Part shown: piece by piece, positions 15,418-55,242 of the stretch
Position numbering within the stretch: the stretch's first letter is position 1
How the letters are laid out: each line of letters opens with the position of its first letter
Assembly (NCBI GenBank): GCA_032158295.1
Contig: CM063249.1
Span: 21,516,270 to 21,580,269, forward strand
DNA: 64,000 nt
Origin: Pycnopodia helianthoides
Taxonomy: Eukaryota; Echinodermata; Asteroidea; Forcipulatida; Asteriidae
Direction of reading: 5' to 3'
The notes under the pieces: model-generated
Databases searched by the model: none
The model's input: only the letters and a program-made list of their open reading frames with translations
What the model was told of the DNA's origin: nothing
Made by a program: the position numbers and the translations under genes

Positions 15418-15418
15418 G

Positions 15419-19255: not shown

Positions 19256-19465
19256 TTGGAAGTTTGTACCGATTTTACAACAAGACGACAGATCCGTAGA
19301 GCACTTCGTGAGATTCAGTTTGGAGCTATACCTGGCTTAGTGGCTTCCTGCAACAACAACTCGGACAAAACTTACATCTCAAACAAAATGGCTGACGATC
19401 ACGCAAACCCAGAACTCGAAAAGAAGCTAAAAACAATCGCGGACGAAGAGACACTATCAAATATG
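19256..19465 (+). CDS. SMTN: Smoothelin exon a: repeat 1 core plus start of repeat 2
   Basis: 210 nt, 70 codons, phase 0 at both ends (acceptor TTTTATCAG, donor ATG|GTAAGA). Residues 1-21 are the second half of a smoothelin repeat (LEVCTDFTTRRQIRRALREI). A linker of about 40 residues (with NNNSDKT and DDHANPELEKK) follows, then the first half of repeat 2 (ADEETLSNM) ending at the conserved M|L intron. Unlike repeats 2 and 3 there is no intron between the core and the next linker, so this is a fused exon. The matching upstream exon (first half of repeat 1) was searched for in 1-19255 and not found. Confidence 0.92.
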
Positions 19466-19480
19466 GTAAGAACTTGTTTA

Positions 19481-19834
19481 AAGGCATGATATAAAAACTT
19501 ACTTGGTAAAGAGCACTGGAGAGCTGCTGATATTATAAAACATCGTTAGAAATATCCCCCTTTGAAGTATTGTAGTTGTACATTACATGTAGAGACAGAG
19601 GTAATTTTTTTACCCCCAAATTTGAATCTGAGAAAGGCTTCAGGCATAAAGCCTTTCTCATGCATCTGGAAGCACACAATTCTATGCAACAAGGGTTTTT
19701 TGTTATTTTATTATTTTCTTGTAACTTGGAGGACCAATTGAGCCAAAATTTTCACAGGTTTTTGATTATGCATATGTTGGGATACACCAAGTGAGGATAC
19801 TTGTCTTTGACTTACCAAAAGTATATCCTTCCTT
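19481..19834 (-). mobile_element. Family A MITE next to the exon a donor
   Basis: 354 bp, reverse relative to the copy at 40970, near full length. Starts AAGGCATGATATAAAAACTT and ends TACCAAAAGTATATCCTTCC-TT, flanked by TA on both sides. It lies 15 bases downstream of the splice donor of smoothelin exon a, leaving the donor intact. Confidence 0.85.
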
Positions 19835-19917
19835 TAAAGTACAATTACTAAATCTAAATATTGTAATTAATTTGGGAAATTGGTAAAACCATTTGTTTTG
19901 TGAAGAGTACATTCAAT

Positions 19918-20166
19918 TTAAGGGGAGACTCGTCATGGTCACAGCAAGCCTGTGGCTGTACAGAGTATTATAAACTCTAACACAGTTACTGTACGGGCGT
20001 GCCATGCGCGTGCTACGCGTGTGATCGCTGGCCTTTACATAACAAAGGATGCTATCATTATTGTGATGTGGCAGCCAGCGCCCGTGTGCTATAGAAACGT
20101 GGTTAGAGTTCAAACTTCCGTGTACAGCCATAGGCCTGCTATGATCATGAAGGCAGTCCCCCTTTA
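19918..20166. mobile_element. Family I TIR element
   Basis: The left end (AAGGGGAGACT-CGTCATGGTC-ACAGCA-GCCTGTGGCTGTACA) returns inverted at the right (TGTACAGCCATAGGCCTGCTATGATCATGAAGGCAGTCCCCCTT). About 249 bp; the centre is CpG-rich (GTGCCATGCGCGTGCTACGCGTG). Only one copy was noticed. Open frames on both strands reflect the symmetry. Confidence 0.8.
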
Positions 20167-20627
20167 AGTATTATTACATCCATCCAAAGTCTATATTGAA
20201 GAAATATCAATAGACTCCAGGCAAGAATTCAAACATATTTGGGAACCTTGGATTACCACTCACATTGTTTTAACGTAAGAAGGAAAACAAATTACACGTA
20301 AAAGCCAACCCCCCCTTAAAAAAAACCAAATAACCCAGTGCCCCCTGGGTGCCCCCCCCCCCCAAATAAAAAATCCTGATAGCGCCCCTCCCCCCCCCCC
20401 CCTAAAAGAAGAAAAAGGGCATCCTATATCCTGATTAAGTCTGTGAGCTGTTCGCTTTCATGTAAAATACATTGGGGCATTTTCAAACCTATAACATTTG
20501 TAACTTCATCAAAGAAGCACCATCCCTACCACTGACCTCGCCTTTGGCTTGCTCCTTTTTACAAGATCTATCTTAATGACAGAAAACTGTCTATATACAG
20601 TTTCACTTTTAAATGGTTTATATATGA
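20167..20627. other. No gene; C tracts
   Basis: Poly-C tracts at 20352-20363 and 20390-20402 with A-rich spacers (20310-20420). Otherwise unremarkable intron DNA. Confidence 0.55.
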
Positions 20628-20880
20628 ACAAGCACTGAGAGAAGTTTTATCTCATTTGTCTTATGGGTGAGTACTTCAATACTCAACTAAAACATATTTA
20701 TCAGACTTAAAATCAGCATTTCAACAAAACAAATTTTTAGTCGAAATTACAGAGTGAGGTATTATTAATCAAATGAAAATCACAATACCGCCAGACTTTT
20801 CGGTCTTGAGTTTACTGGCCCAGAGCTCAAATCACTGGCCTCAGGCCTGCAATCTAGTGTAAGTTTCAAACCCTGTCTGG
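20628..20880 (+). repeat. Family J dispersed repeat (copy 2)
   Basis: Shares TTTTATCTCATTTGTCTTATGGGTGAGTA and CTCAAATCACTGGCCTCAGG-type phrases, in order, with 4985-5230, about 245 bp apart in total span in both. (Quoted phrase given as consensus; short gaps exist.). Confidence 0.65.
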
Positions 20881-21477
20881 GATGTACAGTTCTTAATAAA
20901 CACACCATACAACCAAACTGTGAAATAAAATGTTGTCACATTATGCCGGAATTTTGTTCTAAAAACCTACACTAAGGTTTGTATTTGCTAGGGATTTGCA
21001 GTAAGAATACATATGGAGTACACATAATCTATGCAGGCCATCAGTGAAATCTTGCCTTCTTTTAAGAAAGCACAGTAAGGAGTATGTACTGATGTATGCC
21101 GTGCACCATAAAACCAAGGAGACAATAAACTCTGTTAACACCAAAAATGCACTTTTAAGTTGGACCTAAGCAGAGTTAAGTCAGTTACAGCCAGACCTCC
21201 AAATTTATAATGGTGTTAGCGCGTTCCTCACGCCTCTTCGGCCAAATTTGAATAATCTTACCATGCATGTTAAATTGAGCAGGGGAAATTTGACTTGGAG
21301 GTCATGTTTACGTGTTCATTTACAATCCTCTATACAAGACCTCATGAATTTTATGCAGAAAGTTCAAGTGCATAGGGGTTGTGATAAGTTCTTGTTATGG
21401 ATACAGCGAACACATGTACATTATGTAGTAGGCCTATTGAATGCATTTGGAGTAATGCACCCTCAAAGGTACAGTGG
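20881..21477. other. No gene recognised
   Basis: Intron DNA; no shared repeat seen. Confidence 0.5.
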
Positions 21478-21918
21478 TGTGCCAACCATGTGAGGTTTAT
21501 CCCTATGGTGAACCCACATGGGTGCATGGTGCATCCTGTGAGGTTTATAGTGAACCCTCATGGGTGCTGGGTGAACGCTCATGGGTGCAGAGTATACCCT
21601 GTAGGGTCTATAGTGAACCCTCATTGGTGCAGGGTATACCCTAATGGGTGCAGGGTAAACTCTTATGGGTACAGGGTATGGGTGCAGGGTGAACTCTCAA
21701 GGGTACAGGGTGTACCCTATGAGGTTTATAAAGAACCTTAATAGGCACATGGTGCACTGTGCAAGGTTTACAGTGAGCCTACAGTACTATTAGTGCAGGG
21801 TACACCCTGTGAGTTTGATCATGAACCCTCATGGGTGCATAGTGTACCCTGTGAGTTTTAGAGTGAATTATCATGGGTGCATTGTGCATCCTGTGAGGTT
21901 TAAAGTGAATCCTAATGT
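21478..21918 (+). repeat. Minisatellite with GTGAACCCTCATGGGTGCAG motifs
   Basis: About 440 bp of degenerate tandem units built from GAGGTTTATAGTGAACCC, TCATGGGTGCAGGG and TATACCCT. The unit is about 28 bp, often paired into about 57 bp. The 114-codon frame at 21397-21741 (repeating VNPHGC) lies over it and is not taken as a gene. Confidence 0.85.
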
Positions 21919-22954
21919 TGCACTTTTTGAGATGGTACACTTTAGAAGTTTTGATTTAACCTGTAAAACCACTATAATCTTGAGCTTTTGCTGAATTGAA
22001 TTACAAAGATTTGTTTTTAGATGTTTTGCATATTAACAGACACATTTCTAAGGACTATGTGCATATGCCAACTGCTTGTAAATTATGAAATGGTTTGTGG
22101 TACCCTCTCCTAGATTAAGTTATTCTTCACAGTTTTGTTTCTTAACATAATGATGTTACAGTACGTGCAGACCTGCATTCTCCTGATACAAACCAGAAGC
22201 TTCCAAAGTCATAAACTCGCATAAATTCCGATCACGGTTTGCAATGGGCATTAACTTTCAGTCAGTAAGCACTGGCTGACAAACACTGGCAGTCGTGACA
22301 CCACATTACAACTGCTCCAACTCATATGTACCGCGGCACACATGAAGAATCTAACAGATGTATATATTCAAATGAATGTAAACAGAGTAGACCGTCTCGG
22401 GTGAACAGTAAGCGACTTTGCCCGGGTGCAGGTCAGTTCCTTTTATGGTGACAAGACGCCAAACCACCTCTCTACGTACATTCCTACCTCCTCCACTTCC
22501 TATTAAAATACTTCAGCTCTTTAACCTCTTCAGCAGAAAAAAAAGAAGATTTGAAGTCAAAATGATCGTAAAAACATTAAGGACAAGCAACATGAAAACA
22601 CCAAATAAACAGACAATAATTGCAGGGTTCTCTCCTGGATTGGTTGGGCATGCTCGACCCAAATTTGGGAAGTTTGGCCTACATGCACAAGCACACTGAA
22701 TTAAAAACAAGGTCCCCGGAATGTTTTTCACTTGTTGTTTATCTTTGGTTTTAAAAGCCCTATGTAATGTATGCAATCTGGCTTATTCTAAATGGTTTTA
22801 TCTTGACGATTTTTGTGAATTTGATCTGAATTTTTTATGTGCTAGCTGCAATTTGCACTTGGCGGCCTTGAATATGCTAGCTTGTGCATGGGGTGAACTA
22901 GAACCCTGAGTTAATTCATCTACAAGCATTAAAGATAATGTAGGCCACGGCTTC
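21919..22954. other. No gene recognised
   Basis: Intron DNA. Frames at 22418-22699 (plus) and 22513-22776 (minus) show no domain. Confidence 0.45.
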
Positions 22955-23075
22955 TAATTGCCCCTGGTCTTGGCCTTGGACCCCCTTCAAAATGTTTCCA
23001 TAAACTTACAGATTTTCCAATGGAATTGCCTTAGCAAAAAAAAAAGGAAAATGCCTTGCCCTCTAAAAGGCGAAA
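22955..23075 (-). repeat. Family G fragment
   Basis: The reverse complement has AGAGGGCAAGGCATTTTCC and TTGCTAAGGCAATTCCATTG, matching other family G copies, and ends with CAAGACCAGGGGCAATTAG. Confidence 0.6.
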
Positions 23076-23443
23076 TTAAAGGCCCACATACATGTACATT
23101 GTATTACAATGCTTCTTACAACAGAGGAGCATTAGAGTGGAAAGTTAGAATCTCTAGAGGCCCAGTCCATTTATGTTGTTTTTAAAAAGAATACATGTGT
23201 ATAAAAAATAGAACAACTCAAAAATATTCCGCAAATGTGCTTTGTGTGGACAAACTTTCTAAACATGCAATCTTCACAAATTATGTGAACTACTTTCATG
23301 TATTTAATGTTAACTTTGCATCAGGAATACAGAATATTATTTGGTTTTGCCCATACACCGATGTGTGTAAAGCACTGTACACTCAGTTCCTGGTACCTGC
23401 TGCTGATATATAGGATTTGAACTGCCTCTATAGCTATTGGGCA

Positions 23444-23610
23444 ATCTCAGTGGTCTAGTGGTAAGAGTAAGACTTCTGCTCTAGAGTGACAAAGGTCGTG
23501 GGTTTGAATCCCACGCGAGTAATGTGCCTAGGTTTTTTTTCCACAGGACTTGTGAAAGTACCTAGTATACAGTGTTGTACACACATCAGTGTATGGGTAA
23601 AACCAAATTA
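23444..23610 (+). repeat. tRNA-derived SINE-like element (family S2)
   Basis: Box A-like AGTGGTCTAGTGG (about 23450-23461) and box B GGTTTGAATCC (23511-23521). The tail shares AGTATACAGTGTTGTACACA and GTATGGGTAAAACC with 7384-7545. Confidence 0.75.
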
Positions 23611-24564
23611 ATATAGTTTTTATGTTTATTTGAACCCGTGTTGTGTACATTATTTAGTAGGCCATTTAATTGCTCATTTATTGTTTCATAAATAAGTAGA
23701 TTAGTTTGGAGATGACATCATAAACATCAATATTTCCAACTGGTTCATCAAATTCCTGAGATATATTAGCGTTCCATGAAGAAGAACCAAAAATATTTCA
23801 CCCCAAGTAGAAAGTGCACGCTAGTGTACAGTTCCACATTCCTAGAACCTTTACCCTCAATCCCCACCAGGTATTAATACGTGTGAATGGTCATCAAGGT
23901 GCGATGACACTTTACTGTGTACATTAATTCAGTCTATGGAAATCAAATAATTTCTTGCATGGTCTGTCAAGGGAGCGTGTTTGTATCCGAGGGACTGGGA
24001 TGATCCCCAAGGGGCACAGTTAAGGCACAATCCAGAGGTCATGACCTACAAATATCAATCTGATAAACTTGGGATTCATGTCCCGAAGCTCAGCCTGTGT
24101 TTTCGGGTGGAAGAACTCCAGAAGCGTGAATAGTGAAGAATAGATGTTATTCTAGGGCTTGGATAGAAGGTGACTTTTTATTGTGTATCAAGGTTTTATG
24201 GTCGATCATAAAAGGATAGTAATTAGGCCTATATAATATGATGCAACGGCTTTGCTGTGAAAGGTTCCGTTGAAATGACACTAATTTGTTTCTGAATTTT
24301 TGGGGGCGCAGTTGCAGAATTTTATAAATGGATGTGTTTCGGGGAATGATTGAAAATAATTAAAGTTTAAAAGAGCCTTGATGAGAAGTGTGATCTAGAT
24401 TTGATGGAAGTGCGCTTTTAGGCTTAGAATTCATGATTGGACTTGAGTTTTTATTTGCCATGGAGATTTGAGAATTCTTTAAGTACGAAGAATTTGAAGT
24501 GTAGTGATGATAGTCCGCTTTTGGTTCCATGTAAACAAGTTCCAATCGAGCAGTTCTTAATCTA
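23611..24564. other. No gene recognised
   Basis: Intron DNA without shared repeats. A minus frame at 24360-24605 overlaps the foldback that follows and has no domain. Confidence 0.5.
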
Positions 24565-24742
24565 GTGAGGTTTGCGGAGACGTCATAAATATAAAACTCT
24601 CTCAACGAGTTGTTGTGATTCTGAAAAGAACCGGTGGTTCAAAGAGTCTACATGTAGTTGAGAGATTGTTAAACCAGTCTTTTCAGAACCCCTACAACTC
24701 ATAGAGAGAGATTTATGTACATGGTGTTTTCGCAAACCACAC
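24565..24742. mobile_element. Family K foldback element
   Basis: The left arm (GTGAGGTTTGCGGAGACGTC ... AAAACTCTCTCAACGAGTTGT ... TTCTGAAAAGA) is inverted on the right (TCTTTTCAGAACCCCTACAACTCATAGAGAGAG ... GTTTTCGCAAACCACAC). The same arm phrase (GTGAGGTTTGCGGAGACACC) is found at about 40542 inside the family Q copy, so K and Q may share an end. Confidence 0.75.
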
Positions 24743-25714
24743 TCAATTGTATCCCCACCGTGCAAAGTGTCTTACTTAGTTCTTAATCTGGAACCTTCTT
24801 CTACGTCTGTTTGGTTTTCTGTCTGTACAGCTTCAGCTCGGGTTTGTTTCTGAAAACCCAGCAGGGACCGTGATACATTCTTTCTTCAATTGAACTGTCT
24901 GGAGGCATTTGTAGCATTTATTAACATACTTTAAACTATAAATCTCGGCTTTCTTTTCTCTGGCTTGGTTTACAGCATAAATTATTATGCCACACCATAG
25001 GACCACCGTGTGCATGATCAGTCAATAATCACCAATTACAGCTAGTTGATACCAAACTGTGAAGATATTAATGCCGCAAGATAAGAGTGATCACTGAGTG
25101 TAGTCCTTTACAGTCCTTTACAATTCGACCGGGATAATCCCTTCTTCATTTATAGAACCGAAATGTATAAGGCCTTGGAAAGGGCTTCAATTATTTCTCA
25201 TCGCTTTGGAGATTTCTTAAAGGGATTTAAAATTCCAGAAGAGATTTGGGGAAATTGTTATCCCTGAGTTGGACAAAATAACACTGCATTTAGTGCAGGC
25301 TTTAGCTGGTGTTTTCTAAACATGTGTACGATGATGCTTAGTCGTGTATTGATGTTAAGCCAGTGGTCACTTGTACCTTGATGTTAGCTAAGTTTGTGTT
25401 TAGTACAAGTGTGAAAATTATTTATCACTTATTCTTTCTGACTAAGATGAACCACTCAATCCTGTTGGTAAGTCGTAAGTCTGTTGGTAAGTCGTCACAC
25501 CCAGCCGTATCTGCTGCATGCCCGAAGTTTTCATGACTTCCAGCTCCAAAGCTGGCATCTGATTGTGTGTAAATTTACCACGAATCACACATTTTATCAT
25601 CAAAAAGCATTTTCTTTGGACAGGAACTTGTAATTCTGGGAAGACCTAGAGTCTTTGTAGAATGTCATGTGAAGCCAAGAAACTTCTTGCACAAATCAGC
25701 TAAGAAAAACTCAA
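24743..25714. other. No gene recognised
   Basis: Intron DNA; small tandem scraps such as AGTCCTTTACAGTCCTTTAC (about 25104) and TCTGTTGGTAAGTCG twice (about 25467-25498). Confidence 0.5.
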
Positions 25715-26110
25715 TGGCGATTGGGTTGGCAGTGCGGTTTCCTTCCTCACCTTCCACCTTTAGGACTGTGGTTCGAATCCCGCTGGGAGCACTATGTGGA
25801 TTGGGTTTCCAGTCCCTACCTGATTGCGTAGGTTTTTCCCTGGAGTATTTCTCTGGGGTTTTCCTCCCACATCAAAAACTGAAACCCTCCTTCTTTGTCT
25901 TCTCTCCATGGGGATACTTAGCTAGTTTAAGACTGTGGTTCGAATCCCGCTGGGAGCACTATGTGGGTTGGGTTACCAGTCCCTACCTGTTTGTGTGGGT
26001 TTTCCCTGGAATATTTTTCTGGGGTTTTCCTCCCACATCAAAAAATGAAACTTCCTTCTTTGTCTTCTCTCCATGGGATACTGAGCTAGTTTAGTGATTA
26101 AGTCCACTTT
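25715..26110 (+). repeat. SINE-like element with tandem duplication of its body
   Basis: A body of about 165 bp (GACTGTGGTTCGAATCCCGC ... CTGGGGTTTTCCTCCCACATC ... GTCTTCTCTCCATGGG) occurs twice in tandem, starting near 25763 and 25929. Box B GGTTCGAATCC is in both. The duplication keeps the reading open (25669-26094, 141 codons repeating FLPHQKLK-type peptide); this is not considered coding. Confidence 0.8.
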
Positions 26111-26507
26111 TCTGAGAACCCTAGGCTTACAACCGGAATTAATAAATAAACTCCTATGGGCTTCTGGTACCCAGTTGAGCCACTTTGTGTGAAGTGGGCA
26201 TGGCTATAGTGGAGTTACAACACATGAACAGAAATCATTGATTACTTACAGAATAAATGCTAACTCCAAATTAGGTCTCCTTGTTTCATTTGTTCTGGTC
26301 TTAAACAGAACTATGACTTTCACATAAACAATTCTTGAGGTAAACTATGGCCACTTTAGAAACCAGATTCTGGGCTTTGGCTTGGGCTGGGCTTATATTC
26401 CGTAAGTTATTTTGAAAATGAATGTTTTTAGTATGGGGTTTCAAATAGGCAGACATTGTCTAAGCCAAATTCATTTACACATTGGTTTGTATGCAATGCC
26501 CTACACC
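26111..26507. other. No gene recognised
   Basis: Intron DNA without recognised features. Confidence 0.5.
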
Positions 26508-26701
26508 AGAGCTGCCAACTCTTCCTGATTCTGCGGAAAGTTCCCCGAAAATAAACCAATCTTTCCATGCTCTGATGAACAACTTTAGAAATCTCCCTGA
26601 TTATGGAAACCTTTTCCCTATTATGTTGAATGTAATTCTGAATAGCTCCCTGATTGTTGTACAAATCTCCCTGATTGCAAGATGCACATGTTGGCAGCTC
26701 T
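26508..26701. mobile_element. Family N TIR element
   Basis: 194 bp, with AGAGCTGCCAAC at the left end and its exact inverse GTTGGCAGCTCT at the right. Internal CTCCCTGATT phrases repeat four times (TTCCTGATT, CTCCCTGATT x3). No transposase. Confidence 0.75.
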
Positions 26702-27584
26702 ACCTACATGTACATACACACTTCGCTTGCGCAGTTTTTTTTATTAAGAAAAGATTATATTAAACAGTTAATGATCCATTAATTCAGCTTGCTATATGAT
26801 AAAAATAACAACATTTGCATGATTTGAGATCTCCACTTGCATGGCTAGTAAAATGTCTAAGTTTAATTGGCAAAGTAATAGTCTCTGAAGCAATGATTTT
26901 AATAGTTTAACTTCAAACACGGTTTTCTCCAAGCATGAAAGTTTGGCTGCTGGGGTCAGGTGTCGCTTCACAAACACAAAAACTGTGACCGGTGACGATT
27001 TCACTGTTGGCCTCCCAATAATTACAGCATCGCCTCTAACCTATCACAATACCAACCTCATTGTGGTCTTCCTGAGATCATGGAGGATGAAGAGTTTGAA
27101 GCTCTTTGAGGCAGTCAACTGGTGGATTAAAATGTGACAATCACAGGCAAAGTTGTACAATGAGAAGCCTTCTGGTCATGCTTTGTGGGATTCTCTAATT
27201 CTCATGGCTGTTTGTTAAGACCCTCATGTCATGGTCACTTTACCATGTTAAGAAGGACCTGTGCATCCTAGATAAGATGCAGTATTGGTCATGTTGGTGA
27301 TACTTTACAACACTGCTTCTTGGATGCTACTCTAACAAGTTAACAACACACGAGGTTGTCAAATATTTGCGCATTCAACCTTTGAAAGTTTTCAGCCTAA
27401 ACTATGTGTTTTTCAAGAAACCTATGAAGTACACACATTTCTTTCTTCTAAAAATCATGTATAAATAGAACGTAATTTATCAGCTAATTTTCTGCGTATT
27501 TTTCAGTGCTGTAGTAAACTTTAAATCTCTGGATACAAAGTTTTGCAATTTTGTGTGTTGTGATAGCCAACGTTGTTCTTAATC
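26702..27584. other. No gene recognised
   Basis: Intron DNA. Overlapping short frames at 26792-27137 on both strands have no domain. Confidence 0.45.
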
Positions 27585-29551: not shown

Positions 29552-29903
29552 TCATGGCTGGGTGGTTTAGAGCATCGGATTCAAGCTCTGGTGATCGAGT
29601 CATCGGGGTGTGGGTTTGAATCCCGGTCGTGACACTTGTGTCCCTGAGCAAGATGCTTTACTATAATTGCTCCTCTCCCCCCACCGGGGTATAATGGGTA
29701 CCTGCGAGGGTAGAGGTTGATATTGTGTATGAGAAAGCCTTCGGTGCGCCATGGCAGCACGGGGCTGTATACTCCCCAGGGAGCTGAGAAAGATTACAGA
29801 ATGCTATTGGCCCAATGACCAGGGCACTTATGTAAAATGCATTGATACGTTATTGTGAACAGTGCTATATAAGAACTAGTTATTATTATATTATTATTAT
29901 TAA
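29552..29903 (+). repeat. tRNA-derived SINE-like element (family S5) with TTA tail
   Basis: Head with box A-like TGGCTGGGTGGTTTAGAGCA and box B GGGTTTGAATCCC. The body TGTCCCTGAGCAAGATGCTT ... GGAGCTGAGAAAGATTACAG ... GTGCTATATAAGAACTAG is followed by a TTATTATTA tail (29879-29903). It matches 42145-42600 in reverse, over about 300 bp. Confidence 0.8.
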
Positions 29904-32863: not shown

Positions 32864-32939
32864 CTCCTGGCGACAACTGACTTCCACGACCGTAGAAAGA
32901 TCCGTTCGGCCATCAGAGAACTGAGGATAAAGAAACTAG
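32864..32939 (+). CDS. SMTN: Smoothelin exon b: repeat 2 core
   Basis: 76 nt, enters in phase 0 and leaves in phase 1 (acceptor TTCCAACTCAG|, donor CTAG|GTTTGT). Encodes LLATTDFHDRRKIRSAIREL-RIKKL plus the first base of a Gly codon. It completes the repeat begun by ADEETLSNM in exon a. It has exactly the same length and phases as exons d and h, which fixes the donor even though GTTTGT departs from the usual GTRAGT. Among the five cores it is closest to the vertebrate smoothelin N-terminal repeat as I remember it. Confidence 0.92.
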
Positions 32940-34325: not shown

Positions 34326-34545
34326 GAGTTCAACAAAGAAAATTGACCAGAGCGGGATTTGACACTCTACCAACTGAGCTATATAATATCCCTATGTTGG
34401 CGATCTCCCTATTTAGTTAAAATATTGACAAAATAGGGAGACTTCAAACATAGGGCTAGATAGCTTAGTTGGTAGAGCCCCAGCATGTTAATCCGGAGGT
34501 CGTTGGTTAAAATCCCACTCTAGTCAATTTTTCTTTGTTCAACCC
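34326..34545. repeat. Inverted pair of tRNA-like SINE heads (family S3)
   Basis: 34326-34414 is a reverse copy and 34430-34545 a forward copy, 15 bases apart. The forward copy keeps a tRNA-like order: GGGCTAGATAGCTTAGTTGG (box A), GAGGTCGTTGGTTAAAATCC (box B, one base from GGTTNNANTCC). The reverse copy has lost about 23 bases between its box B and box A. The pair would form a long hairpin. Confidence 0.8.
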
Positions 34546-35222: not shown

Positions 35223-36974
35223 TAGCCACTGGTGAAGCCATTAATCTGAACACAGCCTTAGTAAGAAACATTTTGCAAACAGCTAAGTATACAAGTGGGG
35301 TTGGATTCAACACTTCTTCAACTAATAAACTTGAAACAAAGCTGAATTGAGCCTCAAAACCCACCAAAACCTGAAGAGTAATGTCTTCAGCTGTTAATTC
35401 ATTATCATATCTCCAGAACAAAACAATTAATTGTTTGTGCCAGTACAGGTCAGTCAGTGAACCCCCCTATGATATTTAGTGCCACCAGGTTCCACTGTTA
35501 TACCTCACAATATGTCACCAAGTTCCTCTTGAGTTATCACTCAGACAACAGTTCTTTTGTTTTAGCCATAATGACCTTGGCATTTGACCTACGTCATTGG
35601 AAAGGTCTTTGAAAAAAAAACGAACATTCATTTCATGACATCACACGTGATGGAGTCATCGTAGGTAACACTGTCATCTGGTATCATGACTGATGTACTT
35701 TGAATCTTGAATTTTGAATCTTCAATTTTGAGACATCAATCATAAAGCATAAAACTTAATTCTTGTACCATTTCCGAAGCATGTCTAGTGTTTGTGATGT
35801 TGCAAACACTGAATTTCTAGTTTGTTATTATTTCCACTATGTTTTCTACCTTACGTAGCATGCAGTGGATAAGTCTATAAAGTTGTTCTTATGTACTTAT
35901 GTGCAGGACCTGCCTATAAAAGGCAGAATACCAGTGATGATGATCATCCCCTCAAATAAACCAAAACTGACTACTTTAATTGCTGTTTCTTTTTAAAACA
36001 AAGAATAAACTACAAACAAAAGTTTGGGGGTTTATTTCATTTTTAAGATTCCCATAACACGCTGTGGTAAATGTTTTGTGACTTTGACAGTTTCCCACTG
36101 AACAAGCGTGTTCCGTGTTGCCATTGTAAACAATGAACCCTGTGAACCACATTTACATACAGGACCTTTCACGTGCCCTGGCCAACCCACTTCCTCTTCG
36201 GAAATGGGTCGATACCAGAGTTGATTTTTGACATCAACAATGTTTACTCACCTTTCAAAGAGTTCTATTTCCAGGGCTATCCACATACAGGAAGATGGCA
36301 GTTCCTTTGACCCTTATAGATATAAACCAACGTAGTCTATTGCCTAAGACATCCAGTGACTAAATCCTGCATGAACAGATTATTTTTGTCTCAATCTCCG
36401 CAAAGTCTGTACACTTTTAGTGTCTCATTAAACCTGGCGATTATATGCATTCGGAAAGCTGTGTTTTTGGGAGAATGTTCTGAAATCTTGTTGACGCCAT
36501 GGTGGGTACAGTTCGCATTCGAGGGAGGAGGGACTTTAAGGGGCTGGTGTCATTTTGGATTGGGCGAAATGACAGACCTGGTGAGTTGGTTTTCAAAGAT
36601 TTTTTCCTGAAATAGCACTTTGGTTTGATGAGCTTGTAGGGCAGATCTAGAGGGTCTGTTTAGTTTTGGAACTTGCAGTTTCCATAAAGTGACTCGCGAT
36701 GGTTGTTGTATAATGTTCGTTAAGCCAAAAGCCCCACTAAATCATTTACAGTCATTATTATTTATTATTATTTTATTATTTAATCAGCAATAACAAAATT
36801 GCAAAATAAAAATAAAGCAAAACTACCAGCTGGGTGACGGGCACCAAGTTATGTAAACTAATCACTGAGATACGTAGAACCTCTACACCAAACCTGATAA
36901 ATTAATTGTTATTATAAAATATAGAAAATGGTTGTTGTGGTAATTGATTTTTGGTAGTATAGAAAGCTGACAGC
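35223..36974. other. Intron; no gene recognised
   Basis: A TTA-rich microsatellite at about 36753-36782. Short frames at 35206-35421 (minus) and 36356-36610 (plus) have no domain. Confidence 0.5.
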
Positions 36975-37385
36975 TAGTTGTGGCCGAGCAGTCAAGTGCA
37001 CTTGATTCAAGCTCCGGTGTTTCTGGTCAGCAGAGTGTGGGTTTGAGACCTGGTCTTGACACTTGTGTCCTTCAGCAAGACACTTAACCATCATTGCTTC
37101 CTCCTTCGGATGTGATGTAAAGCCATAGGTCCCATGTGTTGTGTAATGCACGTAAAAGAACCCAGTACACTTGTCCTTAACAGAAGGGGTTTGCCCTGGT
37201 ATTTTCTGGTATGTTTGGCTGCAAATTGCGCCACAGCATCTTGTAAACTGTTACATATGTAAATAAATGGTCATATGTTTCGAACATAGCCTGCATACCT
37301 TGTTGAGAAAATAATGAGCGCTATAAGACGCCCTTGGGTGTGATAAGCCCTATATCAGAACTACTTATTAATATTGTCAAGGAAA
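36975..37385 (+). repeat. SINE-like element (family S4), near complete
   Basis: Head TTGTGGCCGAGCAGTCAAG with GTGGGTTTGAGACCTGG (box B-like). Then TGTGTCCTTCAGCAAGACAC, GTGTTGTGTAATGCACGTAA, GAAGGGGTTTGCCCTGG, GCAAATTGCGCCACAGC and an end with CTATAAGACGCCCTTGGG and TAAGCCCTATATCAGAAC. Used as the reference copy for family S4 in this window. Confidence 0.8.
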
Positions 37386-39684: not shown

Positions 39685-40360
39685 TAAGTAATAAACCACA
39701 AGGGAAACTGACTAGGTACATACATGTATAAAACACTTTTAGGTCAACAAAGAAAAATTGACTCAAACTGGATTTGGAACTCCGGTGCTCTACAAACAGC
39801 TTTCTAGCCTTATGTTGGCTGTCTTCCTATTGTGTCAATATCTTGGGGGCGCCAGTTAGAAGTCAAACAACCTTATTCCGCAGTATAGACAGGGATCCTG
39901 CCCAGGTTATGGTACAACCTGGAAGCAACAGTAAGGGGATCACCTTAATGGGCTGCAACTTTTGTTTTAAATATCAGGTAATAAACCACAAGGGAAACCG
40001 ACTGGGTACTAGAAGTTTTGGTGAACCAAGAAGTTTTGGTGAACCAGTGCTCTACAGCTTTTTAGCCTTATGTTGGCTGCCCCATAAGTTTGTCTAAAGG
40101 TAATATTATACTGCAGTGTAGCCAGGGTCTATGGTACAACCTGGGAAGGGGCAGTAGGGGGATCACCATAAGGGGATGCGACTTCTTTAAATATCAAGTA
40201 ATAAAACCATAGGGGAACTGACTGGCTACATTATTGTAAATCGATTTTAAGTGAACAAGGAAAGGTAACTAGAACGGGATGTGAACCTGGGACCTCAGGA
40301 TTTAAGTGCCGGTGCTCTACCAATTAAGCTTTCTAATCCTATGTTGGCTCATTAATTTAT
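39685..40360 (-). repeat. Three tandem family S3 units
   Basis: AGTAATAAACCACAAGGGAA (39686), GGTAATAAACCACAAGGGAA (about 39978) and AGTAATAAAACCATAGGGGA (about 40198) start three units of about 290, 220 and 165 bp. Units 1 and 3 contain SINE heads in reverse (GTGCTCTAC...GCTTTCTAGCCTTATGTTGG). Unit 2 is shortened and has AGAAGTTTTGGTGAACCA duplicated. The 107-codon plus frame at 39774-40097 covers units 1 and 2 and is not a gene. Confidence 0.75.
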
Positions 40361-43536: not shown

Positions 43537-43646
43537 GAGATGTGAAGGGTAGTGCATCACCAATCAGGACTGTCAAACCAAAGACAGCACCCAAGAAAGA
43601 ACTCAACCTGGATGGGATCACCGATGAAAGTGTCTTGAGGAAAATG
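43537..43646 (+). CDS. SMTN: Smoothelin exon c: linker and first half of repeat 3
   Basis: 110 nt, phase 1 to phase 0 (acceptor TTTACAG|, donor ATG|GTAAGG). Its first two bases complete the Gly codon split with exon b. Encodes a basic, Pro/Lys-rich linker (GDVKGSASPIRTVKPKTAPK) and then the repeat start (TDESVLRKM), breaking at the conserved M|L site. Together with exon d it makes a complete 1-to-1 symmetric two-exon smoothelin module. Confidence 0.92.
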
Positions 43647-44246: not shown

Positions 44247-44322
44247 TTGGAAGAAACGGATGATTTTGAAGACAAGAAAAAGATCCGAGCAGCCATCAAA
44301 GATATCATTTGCAAAGCAAGAG
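44247..44322 (+). CDS. SMTN: Smoothelin exon d: repeat 3 core
   Basis: 76 nt, phase 0 to phase 1 (acceptor AACCACAG|, donor AGAG|GTAAAA). Encodes LEETDDFEDKKKIRAAIKDI-ICKAR. It aligns position by position with exon b (same length, same L, D-F, I-R residues) and completes the repeat begun by TDESVLRKM in exon c. Confidence 0.93.
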
Positions 44323-46012: not shown

Positions 46013-46028
46013 GTTAAAAATAGCCTTA

Positions 46029-46850: not shown

Positions 46851-46923
46851 GTTATGACTGACTCATTGTGACCCTTTTGATGATGGAGTTTCACCTTGTC
46901 CAAGCCTGTCCAAAGCTGACCAG

Positions 46924-47003
46924 TAGGCTGAGGTGAGAGACATGCCTGTTAGGCTGAGGTCAGCGACATGCCTGTTAGGTTGAGGTAAATAAGATATGCC
47001 TGT
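46924..47003 (+). repeat. Short tandem repeat, 26-bp unit, three copies
   Basis: TAGGCTGAGGTGAGAGACAT-GCCTGT and two following copies, the last slightly longer. Confidence 0.85.
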
Positions 47004-48490
47004 CAGCTCCTATACTTCATTGGTCCAGTGGAATCTCTGTCCCTTCCGCGTGAACAGCTTCCTTCAACATTTCCTGTAACAGTAACTTTTTCCAGATTAT
47101 CTCCTTCTCTTGCATAACTGTCATTAAAATAATGAGTGCTTTGAGATGCCTGTTATAGTTAAAGCACTTTAGAACAACAAGTAAAACATTTAGGGAATAA
47201 AAGAGTGCTAACGAGGTCTTCTGCGGTTGTTTTATCGCACAGTTACGACCCTGCAAATTGTACTAATCATATCTCACCCCAAAAAGGAAAGTTTATGTGC
47301 CAAATAGCGGCTCTGATTGCACGAAAGACCATCTAGGTCCCAAATGTTTCTGGGGCCCTTAAGCGGGCCCCAGACTCCATGCCTTAAAGACTTTGCACTC
47401 CATGCCTGCCAATTGACTTTGAAAAACTAGCACCCCTCACAAAATTTTGTTCTCGCAGGCCTGCATATAATTCCCCCCCCCCCCCGCTATTTTCTTGTGA
47501 CTTTGATGACTGATTGAGCTTAAACTTTCACAAGTTTGTTATTTCATGTATGTTGGGTCACATAAAGGGCAGATACTGGTCTTTGACAATTGACACAATT
47601 TAGCCTCAGCTCGCCTCAACTCTGCCCTGAATTTTTATCAATGTTGAGTGCTAATTAGCTCCTCGCGCAAGTTTCGAACTTGTGCGATTATGTTTCAAAC
47701 TATCGCATGCAAATTTCCATTTTGCGCAAGCCAAATATTAGACCTACCCCAACTTAAATTGGGCTGTGAAATTTGCTCAATCTGCACAATCTTCTGACTC
47801 CAATTTCTTTAGGCTTTGTTTTAAACACTCCTCACTCTGTTTATATTGCATGTTTAAAAATGGCCACGTGATCTCCTATCGACCAATCAGAATGAATAAA
47901 CTAGCTTAGGTGTTTATGAATTATTATTGAAAAAATCTGAAATGGATCACAAACGTGTGCCAGTAAATCAGTCAAACCTTCTGTAGTTGTGTATTAAATG
48001 ATGTTCATAACATTCAGACAGTTTTCGTTCCTATTTTTACGATTGGAATTAGTCAAGTTTTTTTGCAAAGTAGTAAGAAGTGTTCCTACTGAGTAATGAG
48101 ATTAATGCAAACAACCAGGGCAGTGGCCAGACAGCGCTGAAATATGCTGGGCCCGAGTCTAGACTGTTTGATACAGTTGACTTGTATCATGTTCCACCAA
48201 GTATTCCATGATAAAATATTTTGGGAATTCAGGGGAGTTGTATGGCCCCTGCACATGTGGAAAGATAATTATTAAAAGGGGGGTTAATGTCAAAAGCAAC
48301 TGTGATAGTTTGTTGTGGAGAGTCATTTAGTTCATGCTTTCATCTACATAGGGGGTGGTAAATATGACCCCCCCCCCTGTTCACGAGTAGAAACGGAGAA
48401 TAATGGAATAAGTTAAACACTAGGGAGTGTAACACTGTCTGTCAACCCCCCTGGGATGGGTTTCTAAAACTTCATTTCCAACATACAGGC
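47004..48490. other. Intron; no gene, repeat scraps
   Basis: 47498-47595 is a reverse family A/Q-type piece (GATTGAGCTTAAACTTTCAC, TGTTGGGTCACATAAAGGGC). Poly-C tracts lie at 47473-47485 and 48368-48377. TGGGGCCCTTAAGCGGGCCCCA (about 47350-47371) is a short inverted repeat. Nothing coding recognised. Confidence 0.5.
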
Positions 48491-48857
48491 CTACTTGAAT
48501 TTTGAAATCTACTTTCTACTCATTTGTTTTCCCAAAAAAATATTTAAATTGGCCATGTTTCTGAAGTTATAGGATTATATTATAATAGCAAGCGCTGTTA
48601 TTTAGTTTTACTGAATTGAGTTTGCTCAAGTACTATTAAATTGTTGTTAATATCTTCTTCTTTTTGACTTGGTGGACTGCTTGAAATTTGAATGTACTGT
48701 CTTTGGAATTCATTTATTTGTTCTCATATTTTTAATCTGGTCATGTTTCTGAAGTTATGGAAGTACAGTTATAGTAAGCACTGCTATGTAGTTTTACTAA
48801 ATAGAGCTTGTTCAAGCACTATCATTAATTTCTTCTTTTATTTTGACTTGGTGGTTT
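48491..48857 (+). repeat. Tandem duplication, about 185-bp unit, two copies
   Basis: Copy 1 (48491-48676) and copy 2 (48677-48857) share CATGTTTCTGAAGTTATRG, TTAGTTTTACTRAATWGAG and TTTTTGACTTGGTGG in the same order. They are moderately diverged. Confidence 0.8.
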
Positions 48858-49199
48858 ACAAGATTTTCTTAAAGGTAGTCAGATTATGACACCAAATGAT
48901 CAGCACATTTTTGTTAAAGACTAAGTACCAAATTACATGTAGGCTAGTAATGACAAAAAACACCCCAAAATATTCAGTATTTATTTCCGTCTGAAAGCCC
49001 ACTGATAATATAGTTCTAAATAATACATGGAATGATTTTAAAAGCGCCTTTCAAGTGTTAAAGGTACTAGGGCTCAGTAGGTATTCTTACTGAGTAGGGA
49101 TGCATGTAGTGTTATAATTATTATTACTATATATTTCTGGAAGTGAAACCAAGGATGCCTCTTAAGTGAACTTAATCACTGTAGCTCACAAGCCAGAGG
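48858..49199. other. Intron; no gene recognised
   Basis: Nothing seen. Confidence 0.5.
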
Positions 49200-49462
49200 A
49201 AACCTGTAAACAAAAGTGCTTTCTATGTGAACCAGAAACACCGGGGATAACCCCTACTTTTTCAAGATAAGTTTTCTAGGTTCTTTTATATATGTACTAC
49301 TAATCCTAGTACGAAGGACCTAGGGCTTAACGTCCCATCCGAGGGTACAGTATCTTGCTCAAGGACACAAGTGCCACGACCGGGACTCAAACCCACTTTC
49401 TGCTGATCAGAAACACCGGAGTTTGAGTCTGGTACTCTTGACCGCTCAGGCCACAACACGTC
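49200..49462 (-). repeat. SINE-like element (family S4)
   Basis: Reverse copy with CCAGAAACACCGGGGATAAC, AGGGCTTAACGTCCCATCCG, CTTGCTCAAGGACACAAGTG, GACCGGGACTCAAACCCA (box B reversed) and ACCGCTCAGGCCACAACAC (head). This is the best-preserved head of the family in the window. Confidence 0.75.
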
Positions 49463-49822
49463 TCAACCTTACCAAAAGTATCCATACATCTCCTTCAAAT
49501 CACACATGTCGGTGGTCAAAGCTTGTTTCAATCAGTCATTTTATTTGAACTCTCTCTTTTTGAAAGCAAGTGACTTCCCTTTTTTGAAAAGGAAACGGAA
49601 GTGAACCATTTGAACAGAAAATCACATGTTATTGGACAAGACATCAGGAATATGCATCTTGCATGTCTGAATAGGTTTTTTAATCATTAAGCGATGGTTT
49701 CAGTTGTGAGAGAGGAGTGTCTGCAGTCTTTAATGGACCCCTTAAAAGGAAAATAAACAGTCTAGCATCTGTAAACAGCATCTTGTTTTATGATCAAGGG
49801 CTCCATATTAACCCTTTCCCTA
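49463..49822. other. Intron; no gene recognised
   Basis: Left flank of the minisatellite. No repeat recognised. Confidence 0.5.
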
Positions 49823-51813
49823 CCATAGGTGACTTTAGTCGACTGCACTCAGTCATACCCCCTCTTACTTACCATAGGTGACTTTAGTCAACTGCACTCA
49901 TACCCCCTCTTCCTTACCATAGGTGACTTAAGTCATCTGCACTCATACCCCCTCTTCCTTACCATAGGTGACTTTAGTCAACTGCACTCGTACCCCCTCT
50001 TCCTTACCATAGGTGACTTTAGTCATCTGCACTGATACCCCCTCTTCCTTACCATAGGTGACCTTAGTCAACTGCACTCATACCCCTCTTCCTTACCAAA
50101 GGCAACTTTAGTCGACTGCACTCATGCCCTATCTTCCTTACCAAGACAACTTTAGTCAACTACACTCAAATCCCCTCTTCCTTACCAAAGGCAACTTTAG
50201 TCCACTGCACTCATGCCCTATCTTCCTTACCAAGACAACTTTAGTCAACTACACTCAAATCCCCTCTTCCTTACCAAAGGCAACTTTAGTCCACTGCACT
50301 CATGCCCTATCTTCCTTACCAAGACAACTTTAGTCTACTACACTCAAATCCCCTCTTCCTTACCATAGGTGACTTTAGTCAACTGCACTCGTACCCCCTC
50401 TTCCTTACCAAGACAACTTTAGTCTACTACACTCAAATCCCCTCTTCCTTACCAAAGGCAACTTTAGTCCACTGCACTCATGCCCTATCTTCCTTACCAA
50501 GACAACTTTAGTCTACTACACTCATGCCCTATCTTCCTTACCATAGGTGACTTTAGTCAACTGCACTCGTACCCCCTCTTCCTTACCAAGACAACTTTAG
50601 TCCACTGCACTCATGCCCCATCTTCCTTACCAAGACAACTTTAGTCTACTACACTCAAATCCCCTCTTCCTTACCATAGGTGACTTTAGTCAACTGCACT
50701 CATACCCCCTCTTCCTTACCATAGGTGACTTTAGTCAACTGCACTCGTACCCCCTCTTCCTTACCGAGACAACTTTAGTCAACTACACTCAAATCCCCTC
50801 TTCCTTACCATAGATGACTTTAGTCAACTACACTCAAATCCCCTCTTCCTTACCATAGGTGACTTTAGTCAACTGCACTCATACCCCCTCTTCCTTACCA
50901 TAGGTGACTTTAGTCAACTGCACTCATACCCCCTCTTCCTTACCATAGGTGACTTTAGTCCACTGCACTCATACCCCCTCTTCCTTACCATAGGTGTCTT
51001 TAGTCCACTGCACTCATACCCCCTCTTCCTTACCATAGGTGACTTTAGTCAACTGCACTCATACCCCCTCTTCCTTACCATAGGTGACTTTAGTCAACTG
51101 CACTCATACCCCCTCTTCCTTACCATAGGTGACTTTAGTCAACTGCACTCATACCCCTCTTCCTTACCATAGGTGACTTTAGTCAACTGCACTCATACCC
51201 CCTCTTCCTTACCATAGGTGTCTTTAGTCCACTGCACTCATACCCCCTCTTCCTTACCATAGGTGTCTTTAGTCCACTGCACTCATACCCCCTCTTCCTT
51301 ACCATAGGTGCTTTTAGTCCAACTGCACTCATACCCCCTCTTCCTTACCATAGGTGACTTTAGTCAACTGCACTCATACCCCTCTTCCTACATAGTGTCT
51401 TAGTCAACTGCACTCATACCCTCTTCCTACATAGGTGTCTTTAGTCCACTGCACTCATACCCCCTCTTCCTTACCATAGGTGTCTTTAGTCCACTGCACT
51501 CATACCCCCTCTTCCTTACCATAGGTGTCTTTAGTCCACTGCACTCATACCCCCTCTTCCTTACCATAGGTGACTTTAGTCAACTACACTCAAATCCCCT
51601 CTTCCTTACCATAGGTGACTTTAGTCAACTGCACTCATACCCCCTCTTCCTTACCAAGACAACTTTAGTCAACTACACTCAAATCCCCTCTTCCTTACCA
51701 AGACAACTTTAGTCAACTACACTCAAATCCCCTCTTCCTTACCATAGGTGACTTTAGTCAACTACACTCAAATCCTCTCTTCCTTACCATAGGTGACTTT
51801 AGTCAACTGCACT
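49823..51813 (+). repeat. 45-bp minisatellite, about 44 units
   Basis: Main unit ACCATAGGTGACTTTAGTCA-ACTGCACTCATACCCCCTCT-TCCTT (45 bp). Two variant types (ACCAAGACAACTTTAGTC...ACTCAAATCCC and ACCAAAGGCAACTTTAGTC...CATGCCCTATC) are concentrated at about 50090-50840. Outer units are far more uniform. A few units carry small deletions (about 51385-51430). Because 45 is a multiple of three, several 60-70 codon frames with the peptide FSQLHSYPLFLTIGD appear; these are artefacts. The array sits in the intron between smoothelin exons d and e. Confidence 0.95.
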
Positions 51814-52262
51814 AATTATAGCATTAATTATTGGACACTTCACATGATTGTTTTCAAAATAGTTGTTACTTTGGTCCAAATAAGGTAAGATGGTGTCATG
51901 GTGGTAAGGTTGGTGTCCACATGGAGTCATTCATGATGTTGTTTGGTAGTTTAAAAACAAGTTTTATCAGGAAATTGGGCGACGAGTTTCCTTGTCTTTT
52001 TGTTTGTTTTTTGAAAAAAATTTAATGACAAGGATCTTTGTTTTAGTTATATAAAGCAAATATTGAATACATTTTGTTCTGCATGTTGCTAAATAAATCT
52101 GTTTTTTTCATTTGGAACAGTGGAAAAATGGAATAGTTTAGATTTTACCTTGTGATTATATTTTGCTCAACAATGCACTGATTTGCGTATAATATTTGTA
52201 TACTCTACGATAGAGACAATTAATTCACGATTGTTTTTTGTTTTATCATGATTTGTCTTCAG
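51814..52262. other. Intron, right flank of the minisatellite
   Basis: AT-rich, no repeat recognised. The exon e acceptor (GATTTGTCTTCAG|) is at 52261-52262. Confidence 0.6.
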
Positions 52263-52342
52263 ATGCTGCTGGTGGTATCATCATGAAAGATGAGGAAGCT
52301 TATGAGGAGAAACTACGTCTACTAGATGAGGAAGCTGAGAAG
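52263..52342 (+). CDS. SMTN: Smoothelin exon e: acidic linker
   Basis: 80 nt, phase 1 to phase 0 (acceptor TCTTCAG|, donor AAG|GTAAAT). The first two bases finish the Asp codon begun in exon d. Encodes DAAGGIIMKDEEAYEEKLRL and LDEEAEK, a Glu/Asp/Lys-rich, probably helical or coiled-coil linker between repeats 3 and 4. It has no L-x2-[MK]-type repeat ending, so it is not itself a repeat half. Frame closure of 1+80 nt supports both borders. Confidence 0.85.
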
Positions 52343-52429
52343 GTAAATAATATGAAAAATAAATGAAAACAAGAGTTCGCGGCCTGTGTAAATAAAAGTT
52401 AACATTTATATAGCGTAGATGGGATTTGA

Positions 52430-52950
52430 GGCATTGCATGATGAGGTATCAATGTATATTCAGTTTGTGGTAACACCATGTGTATATATATCTACTATGC
52501 GATGTAGATATTGTTCTTTGAGAACTTGTCTTGCTATTGATTCTACTGCCGCGGAGTAGATTTCGGAATTCAGGAGACTACTTAGTTTTGACAAGAACTG
52601 TCCTGCTTTTTAACTACTACCTGGGCGGGATTTAGGAAATCGGCCGGGACTACTACTTTGGCATAGTGGATTGAGGGGACTTCTCGTTATTTACTTCACT
52701 GCCGCGGAGTGAGTTCTTAATTGGCCTTACAGACCAGTAGTAGTAGTCCCGTCCAATTTCCTACCTACTGCCCAGGTAGTAGTTTATAGTTAATAAGCAG
52801 GATAGTCCTTTTTAGAACTAAGTGGTCTCCCGAATTCCGAAATCTACTCCGCTGCAGTAGAATCAATAGCAAGACAAATTCTCAAAGAACAATATCTACA
52901 GGGCATTGTAGATATATGCACACGGTGTTACCACAAACTGATTAAACATA
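52430..52950. mobile_element. Family D foldback element, longest copy
   Basis: About 520 bp. Left arm: GAGGTATCAATGTATATTCA ... ATTGTTCTTTGAGAACTTGTC ... TACTGCCGCGGAGTAGATTT ... ACAAGAACTGTCCTGCT ... ACTACTACCTGGGC. Right arm: the inverse from GCCCAGGTAGTAGTTTATAG to GTTACCACAAACTGATTAAA. The centre (52640-52750) holds a second CTGCCGCGGAGTGAG phrase and ACTACTACTTTGGCATAGTG. Begins about 90 bp after exon e. Confidence 0.85.
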
Positions 52951-53280
52951 TATATAGCGCTTCATATGTAGAGTTACTAAGCACCTAACAAAAATTTTTA
53001 ATATGATGAAACAGCATAAATAACAAGAAAAGAGGAATCAGGTAACAAAGTTGAATTACATAGGTATGTGTTTGATCAATTTTTGAAAGTGTTCAGACAT
53101 GGGGAGTCATGTATGACAAAGGGGGGATTGTTCCAAAGATTGGGTGCACAAATGGAGAAGGCTCGATCCCTGTAGCGAGTATGGGTGAGGGGACCAGGGG
53201 GTTGGTGTGCTGTGGACGATGATCTAATAAGCATGGAGGAAGTTTGCAGTTGGGGTGTATTGTGAGAATATTAGTTGGTC
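52951..53280 (+). repeat. Family P dispersed repeat (copy 1)
   Basis: ATATATAGCGCTTCATATGT, GAGTCATGTATGACAAAGG, TTGTTCCAAAGATTGGGTGC and GGAGAAGGCTCGATCCCTGT. A diverged copy is at 61070-61440 (AAGATCATTCGGAAAAGAAG, GTGTACAAATGCACGATTCC). Adjoins the foldback element. Confidence 0.5.
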
Positions 53281-53527
53281 CTTCAAATACACAAATTAAA
53301 GGTCTTCAGCAAATTCAGAACTCTGCTGCTCATGGCCAAACCAACATTATATATATTTTTCGTTTTTTTTTATTTTTTTAAATTCATTTGCATCTTTGAC
53401 TTTCTGCTGGGGTAGAGCCCATAAACTGAGTACATATGAAACTTTATAAGAGCAAGAGTAAACTGATTAAATGGAATTCTCCTTATACTTTTGTTGTTGC
53501 TGTTATGGATCGATATCTTTATTCCAG

Positions 53528-53659
53528 CACCACACAGATACAATAAAGCCAAGTCAGATAGAAATGATGATCACAGAAGCTCCTTCTACCGATGAACCTA
53601 ATCCCGACGGGTCAGTTGACTTCACAAGAATCAACGATATCAGCACTCTTGAGAAAATG
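53528..53659 (+). CDS. SMTN: Smoothelin exon f: linker and first half of repeat 4
   Basis: 132 nt, 44 codons, phase 0 at both ends (acceptor TTTATTCCAG|, donor ATG|GTATGT). Encodes HHTDTIKPSQIEMMITEAPS, a Pro/Asp-containing linker (TDEPNPDGSVDFTR), and the repeat start NDISTLEKM ending at the conserved M|L intron. The preceding intron is about 1.2 kb, mostly foldback and family P repeats. Confidence 0.92.
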
Positions 53660-54090
53660 GTATGTTCTTTACACAGTATCCCTTTGGGACGTCTCGCGGT
53701 GAACCATTGAACTGTAACAAAAGCGTTGAATGAAGCCGACACTAAAAGTACAAGAGAGATTTTTTTAGTTTAAATGTTAGCCCCAGAAATTTCCAGGGAG
53801 AATGTTTGACATCCTTTTCGATGGTGGAATGTATTTCATCTTAATCCCCTACAACTTGTAATATACTATGTTTCAATCCAGTACAATTTGCTGTACTTTT
53901 TACTTTGTTCACCACCTCACTGTGGTTTGTGGTTTTGTGACTGTAAAGACATTTCAAAGGGCACCAAGGCAAATACAAGGGGCATGGAGGCAAGTGCCTG
54001 AGTGAAGCATCAGGCTTTATGCTCTCTTTGTAACCCCTAACCCCCACCGTTACCCAATGTTTTCCATTTCCCACCACTCACTTTCTGCAG
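53660..54090. other. Short intron between exons f and g
   Basis: 431 bp. Contains a family G scrap (AAGGGCACCAAGGCAAATAC, 53957-53976, then GAAGCATCAGGCTTTATG, also in the 3.7-kb foldback). The acceptor is CACTTTCTGCAG| at 54090. Confidence 0.7.
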
Positions 54091-54357
54091 CTGGCCGACA
54101 TTGACGACTTTGGTGAGCGCACCCAGATCCGTGCTCGCATGAAGGAGCTCCGGGAACAGGACCTGGAAGTGCCTGATTACCCAGACGCCAGACGCCTCTC
54201 TGAAGGTTTAGAAGCCTACTACATGGATGAGAGAGGCCGCAGGAGGAGCAGTTTGATTGACCGTGCTGCCCTGGAGGAGCTGAATAAGAATGCTGCACCT
54301 ACAGATGACAACATCTGCTATGACGAAATTGAAGATCCTGCAGAGCTGGAGAGATTA
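54091..54357 (+). CDS. SMTN: Smoothelin exon g: repeat 4 core, linker, start of repeat 5
   Basis: 267 nt, 89 codons, phase 0 at both ends (donor TTA|GTAAGT). Residues 1-26 are a repeat core (LADIDDFGERTQIRARMKEL-REQDLE). The linker, residues 27-75, is charged, with YPDARRLSEGLEAYYMDERG and an Arg-rich RRRSSLID patch whose Ser could be a basophilic-kinase site (inference). Residues 80-89 (IEDPAELERL) start repeat 5; the usual Met before the intron is Leu here. Like exon a it fuses core and next start without an intron. Codon use is noticeably more GC-rich than the surrounding introns. Confidence 0.94.
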
Positions 54358-54397
54358 GTAAGTTATATAGTTTTAGTTCATAACCCTTCAGAGGACA

Positions 54398-55010
54398 TAG
54401 TGGCCAAAAGCAGCTTGTACCAAAATCCCTTAATAGCCACAAACGGCCAAAATTATTGATCTACTTTGGACCAAAATGCTCGTAGTGGACACAAATGGCT
54501 GTAAGTATGATCTACTTCCATAGGTGGCTTGTATCAAAATCACCAAAGCAGCCACAAACAGCCGTAATTATTATTGACTTTTGTAAGCAGTTTGGACCAA
54601 AATGCTTAAAGGGGCCACAAATAGCTGTAAGTATGATCTATAAACGGCATGAACCAAAATGCTCGTAGTGGACACAAATGGCTGTAAGTATGATCTACTT
54701 CCATAAGGGGCGTGTACCAAATCCCCATAGCAGCCACAAACGGCCGTAATTATTCATTGACTTTTGTTAGCAACTTGGACCAAAAGGCTCATAGTGGCCA
54801 TAAATGGCTGCAACTATGATCTACTTTCATATATGGCTTGTACTAAAATGCACAGGGTGGCCACAAATAGCCGCAAGTATGATCTACTTCCACAAGTGGC
54901 TTGTACTAAAATGCACAGGTGGCCACAAACGGCTGCAAGTATGATCTACTTCCATAAGGGGCTTGTAGCAAAATGGTATTAGTGGCCACAAACAGTGTAT
55001 AGTTGCAGTT
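54398..55010 (+). repeat. Minisatellite filling the exon g-h intron
   Basis: About 610 of the 809 intron bases are degenerate tandem units of about 62 bp, often alternating as about 124-bp pairs. Typical phrases: GGCCACAAATGGCTGTAAGT, ATGATCTACTTCCATAAGTG, GCTTGTACCAAAATGC. It starts about 40 bp after the donor. Confidence 0.85.
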
Positions 55011-55100
55011 CTGTGGTTTTGAGTGTCTATTTGATTTTGAAGCTGTTCTTGCTGTAAATTCGGCTTTTGCCTGCGATGAATGGTAAAAATAAACCATTAT

Positions 55101-55132
55101 GAATGAATGAATAAATGAATGAATGAATGAAC
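55101..55132 (+). repeat. GAAT tetranucleotide microsatellite
   Basis: Eight GAAT-type units with one ATAA interruption, 35 bp before the exon h acceptor. Confidence 0.9.
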
Positions 55133-55166
55133 ATACACATTTAAAAATAAAATTGTTTTCTTGTAG

Positions 55167-55242
55167 TTGGAAAATGCTGTAGACATTGGTGAGAAGCGAA
55201 TGATTAGAGGCTGCCTGAAAAATCTGCAGAAGAAACTTGCTG
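55167..55242 (+). CDS. SMTN: Smoothelin exon h: repeat 5 core
   Basis: 76 nt, phase 0 to phase 1 (acceptor GTTTTCTTGTAG|, donor GCTG|GTGAGT). Encodes LENAVDIGEKRMIRGCLKNL-QKKLA. Third exon of exactly 76 nt with the same phases as b and d. Ile replaces the usual Phe after the conserved Asp, and Cys-Leu replaces Ala-[LI], so this is the most diverged core, as repeat 5 is also the one with Leu instead of Met before the intron. Confidence 0.93.

Follow-up and report, generated by a model that had tools for sequence, protein, structure and literature searches.

Introduction

Human smoothelin (SMTN) carries three smoothelin repeats. The excerpts of the literature that are cited here by PMC number give a single C-terminal type-2 CH domain as the defining feature of SMTN, SMTNL1 and SMTNL2 and describe the role of smoothelin as unsettled (PMC10643981). 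Smoothelin is named as a partner of filamin A (PMC10164935), and alternative promoters, one of them within the gene, give rise to smoothelin A and smoothelin B (PMC3050715). A smoothelin-like protein is mentioned from scallop muscle (PMC5963113), and smoothelin is listed in the domain table of a coral comparison (PMC6214176). Among the listed titles and abstracts on smoothelin, from searches with most subscription journals outside their coverage, none dealt with introns in smoothelin repeats. For a repeat array with a regular exon pattern chicken nebulin may be compared, in which the exon borders all fall within domains and the exon pattern recurs per block of seven domains on four exons (PMC1553488).

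Here we describe a window of 64,000 nt from Pycnopodia helianthoides (contig CM063249.1), which appears, from its letters, to hold the repeat-bearing part of an animal smoothelin-type gene. Five repeats are recognized, four of them complete in the window, compared with three in human SMTN, and the repeats of both genes match the same family, PF12510. As in nebulin, the exon borders lie within the repeated domain and the pattern recurs; unlike nebulin, one repeat seems to form the unit. No CH domain, the defining feature of the family, was seen in this window.

Predicted gene structure

Exon borders were predicted from sequence only, by AG acceptors, GT donors and phase. Exons a to h join without a stop codon into 342 residues, or 365 with the tentative exon i, and the 361 residues given for the joined peptide in the first-pass annotation are replaced by these values. 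Exons a to h alone span 36.0 kb, one intron measuring 13.4 kb. For comparison, PMC10643981 gives 10.5 kb for mouse SMTNL1, 22.5 kb for SMTNL2 and, for SMTN, two stretches of 11.5 kb. The predicted features are:

19256..19465, + strand: exon a, 210 nt, phase 0-0; carries the core of repeat 1 and, behind a linker, the first half of repeat 2; AG before, GTAAGA after
19388..19390, + strand: candidate internal start codon, an in-frame ATG in exon a with the context AAACAAAATGG, reading MADDHANPELEKKL...
32864..32939, + strand: exon b, 76 nt, phase 0-1; core of repeat 2
43537..43646, + strand: exon c, 110 nt, phase 1-0; linker and first half of repeat 3, the half recovered by leave-one-out; no family match of the exon alone
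44247..44322, + strand: exon d, 76 nt, phase 0-1; core of repeat 3
52263..52342, + strand: exon e, 80 nt, phase 1-0; predicted linker, uncertain, with fitting AG/GT borders and phase
53528..53659, + strand: exon f, 132 nt, phase 0-0; linker and first half of repeat 4, the half recovered by leave-one-out
54091..54357, + strand: exon g, 267 nt, phase 0-0; carries the core of repeat 4 and, behind a linker, the first half of repeat 5
55167..55242, + strand: exon h, 76 nt, phase 0-1; core of repeat 5
55991..56059, + strand: exon i, tentative, 69 nt, starting in phase 1, which fits exon h; linker rich in Glu, Lys and Pro that follows repeat 5; uncertain donor and no family match seen for the exon itself

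Several other elements occur in the window. Rfam gives two tRNA matches, both within the predicted intron b-c: a tRNA-Asn (GTT) at 34454-34526, which is also found by ARAGORN, and a weaker match by Rfam only at 40266-40338 on the minus strand. The predicted intron d-e contains a minisatellite at 49812-51813 (45 nt units, about 45 copies), and the bin 48001-52000 in which it lies has a GC skew of -0.28. In a further minisatellite at 59589-60432 (39/77 nt units, about 22 copies of 39) long open frames of 186 to 301 residues run in three forward frames and could mimic a gene. Related translated fragments like CHDRDSNPHSAD, as from a dispersed repeat, were noted by eye on both strands, at 29584-29793 (-), 36915-37250 (-), 49324-49545 (+), 55443-55589 (+) and 55639-55770 (+).

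Repeat cores and first halves

The pattern L....D......IR has only five matches in the six frames of the window, all on the plus strand, with core starts at 19256, 32864, 44247, 54091 and 55167. Leu is the first residue of every core and directly follows an AG acceptor in phase 0. The first halves IADEETLSNM (to 19465), ITDESVLRKM (to 43646), INDISTLEKM (to 53659) and IEDPAELERL (to 54357) all end at a GT donor in phase 0. The first-pass annotation had described both arrangements, Leu-starting cores with D and IR behind a phase-0 intron and first halves at the end of the exon preceding repeats 2-5, and is borne out for all five cores and all four halves.

For the cores, a profile from the other four was run against six-frame open stretches of at least 15 residues; the held-out core ranked next after its four training members in each of the five runs (12.8-28.1 bits, best non-core 5.8-7.1 bits), the weakest being repeat 5 with an E-value of 0.011, and the reversed window reached at best 6.7 bits with the core profile. 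For the first halves, a matrix from the other three was applied to 834 plus-strand candidates, among which the held-out half always stood at rank 4, behind its three training halves only, with scores of 8.6 (repeat 5) to 17.3 versus 5.2-6.5 for other candidates. Because of this recovery of 5/5 cores and 4/4 halves, the resemblance among them exceeds chance. A sixth core was rejected, as the core profile gives only the five in six frames and the next best stretch scores 6.3 bits.

On the predicted exons the window thus shows four complete repeats (2-5) and one core (repeat 1). The five repeats first reported therefore hold at the level of the cores, but 1-19255 yielded no first half for repeat 1. 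With a matrix from the four known halves and three provisional human halves, plus-strand donors with at least 2/4 matches in this region scored at best 6.6, compared with 20.9-24.1 for the known four, and a half that had diverged as far as the one of repeat 5 would be less easily recognized in this search. A Pfam scan of the plus strand in 1-19480 (E<=0.1) gave core 1 as its only match, at 16.9 bits and below the cut-off.

Family assignment

Against PF12510 (smoothelin; curated cut-off 23 bits) the joined peptide scores 137.9 bits in five stretches at a permissive setting (E<=1), and the profile search that had been proposed with the annotation thus returns five repeats rather than one or two. 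Exon a alone, with the core of repeat 1, reaches 24.5 bits, and repeats 2, 3, 4 and 5, each taken singly with both halves joined, reach 49.1, 43.4, 35.7 and 25.6 bits, all above the curated cut-off. Without the first halves core b still passes with 29.1 bits, core 3 (exon d) and exon g with core 4 remain below with 19.9 and 14.5 bits, and core 5 (exon h) has no Pfam match; repeats 3, 4 and 5 exceed the cut-off because their halves are joined across the intron. Together with the hold-out recovery these matches uphold the earlier assignment of the units as smoothelin repeats.

Other Pfam families match the joined peptide weakly and below their cut-offs, and among solved structures a 239-residue part of the peptide matched only DHD131_A, with an E-value of 0.83. 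Among 7991 candidates scored in a protein search for relatives none reached E <= 0.001, and 18 pattern matches in prokaryote genome contigs included no relative.

Shared introns

An AG in phase 0 stands at the same column before 5/5 cores, as had been claimed for all five, and between -30 and +45 nt around the core start no other column has an AG in all copies; the runner-up, with 4/5, lies at offset 36, the end of codon 12 and directly before the conserved Ile-Arg. A second intron is common to repeats 2, 3 and 5 and absent from repeats 1 and 4: exons b, d and h are all 76 nt long and end in phase 1, and a GT at the 76-nt offset is present in 3/5 copies. Position and phase are accordingly the same for the acceptor in 5/5 cores, for the donor in the 4/4 halves found and for the second intron in 3/5 copies.

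Because position, phase and exon length are shared, the best reading, drawn from one gene, is that the intron is older than the repeat duplications and was not inserted repeatedly. The proposal that it predates them is strengthened by the second shared intron with its three 76-nt exons, and refers to a single gene.

Comparison with human smoothelin

The proposal that vertebrates have fewer repeats agrees with three human SMTN segments that all match PF12510, the human letters being provisional here and in the following comparisons. Of its 25 core residues, repeat 2 has 14 in common with human repeat 1 and 13 with human repeat 3, and no more than 11 with any repeat of its own gene. The nearest sequence of repeats 1, 4 and 5 is a human repeat, by one residue each, whereas repeat 3 comes closest to repeat 2 of its own gene (11 residues, compared with 10 for any human one). 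In 2000 column resamplings by substitution score a human repeat was the nearer one in 1100 to 1598 per repeat for all five, a weak preference. A tree of the eight 25-residue cores (five from here, three human) has supports of 0.57-0.82 and was left unused for branching order. These comparisons hint that some of the array already existed before this animal and the vertebrates diverged; since repeat 2 is nearer to two human repeats than to those of its own gene, there is no need to regard the array as an expansion within this lineage.

Alternative interpretations

Parallel insertion, in which the repeats would have been duplicated intronless and introns gained later at the same site in each copy, is very hard to reconcile with these data. 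The absence of the second intron from 2/5 copies does speak for gain or loss of introns in the array since its origin, but a toy estimate that assumes uniform and independent insertion puts four coincidences at one of 105 nt at 8e-9, and two coincidences of the second intron at 9e-5. AG|G is the context of preferred intron insertion sites. The phase-0 junctions read ATG|CTC, ATG|TTG, ATG|CTG and TTA|TTG, with this context in 0/4, which speaks against repeated insertion at preferred sites, although it is present at the phase-1 junction b|c (AG|GA), one of three. That the intron is older than the repeat duplications is retained as the preferred reading. That the gene codes for another protein with smoothelin repeats and not for a smoothelin is improbable, if less so than parallel insertion. 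Its argument is that the family-defining CH domain was not found in the window: PF00307 (CH) has no match in the three forward frames of 55970-64000, where the negative is weakened by the lower sensitivity of frame-wide scans (core 1 scores 16.9 bits in such a scan and 24.5 on the exon alone), and a provisional human CH query gives a best E-value of 1.8 in tblastn against the window, repeat queries finding the cores at 5.7e-5 to 0.013. The frame-by-frame Pfam scans covered 1-19480 and 55970-64000 of the plus strand. Against this reading, no end of the predicted gene was identified inside the window, and in human smoothelin the CH domain sits well behind the last repeat. The assignment to a smoothelin-type gene is kept, with a C-terminal CH domain expected downstream and outside the window.

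The beginning of the protein is less settled. The ATG at 19388 has a good context and may start a shorter form with four repeats. It might even be the start of the main protein, with the core of repeat 1 belonging to a longer form from an upstream promoter or being a leftover; we take this seriously and lean against it. The AAACAAAATGG context and the MADD... start resemble human smoothelin, which begins MADE..., and the missing first half of repeat 1 in the 19.2 kb upstream points the same way. So does the origin of smoothelin A and B from alternative promoters, one of them intragenic (excerpts of PMC3050715). However, the core of repeat 1 is intact, passes the PF12510 cut-off and follows an acceptor with pyrimidines at 18/20 positions, and as an intron of 13.4 kb is present in this gene, the missing half of repeat 1 may be encoded by an exon outside the window. 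The possibility that exon a conceals an intron was rejected: there is no GT at the 76-nt offset, and inspection by eye showed no suitable acceptor before the ATG.

Proposed cassette model and implications

Between the phase-0 introns at the cores lie the cassettes a (210 nt), b+c (186 nt), d+e+f (288 nt) and g (267 nt), each with a core that is followed by a linker and the first half of the next repeat. Their lengths are all divisible by three, which those of exons b, d and h singly are not. We propose that the ancestral smoothelin module already had the phase-0 intron between its first half and the Leu-starting core, and probably also, after a further 76 nt, the phase-1 intron. A duplication bounded by copies of the phase-0 intron would then add one core-linker-next first half cassette. 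Because both ends of such a cassette lie within the module and in phase 0, whole repeats would be added in frame; gain or loss of one cassette would amount to exactly one whole repeat, with the frame kept and no truncated module. In exons a and g the phase-1 intron would have been lost later or never been present.

The repeats would serve as short binding segments upstream of the CH domain, and the protein is probably an actin-cytoskeleton component of muscle-type cells. We hold the whole account with good confidence, namely a smoothelin-type gene with an ancestral split module, cassette duplication, a muscle-type actin-cytoskeleton protein and a CH domain outside the window; its cores, halves, phases and exon lengths are read from the DNA, and we infer the order of events, splicing, CH domain and function.

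Growth of the array by copying an already split module, as the shared intron position suggests, would be a clean example of a known route. More tentatively, and with somewhat less than even confidence, the split module may be an ancient animal cassette whose phase-0 intron predates the split of this animal from the vertebrates, with repeat number changing in smoothelins as frame-neutral cassettes of core, linker and half are gained, lost or alternatively spliced, whole repeats being restored each time. What is known of smoothelin function is left unchanged by the structure of the array. With three 76-nt core exons and a shared phase-0 site, splitting before multiplication is simple to test in annotated animal genomes. 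If the repeat was split before it multiplied, the exon borders would provide a register for aligning these short and diverged repeats, and skipping of frame-neutral cassettes would be a testable source of smoothelin isoforms.
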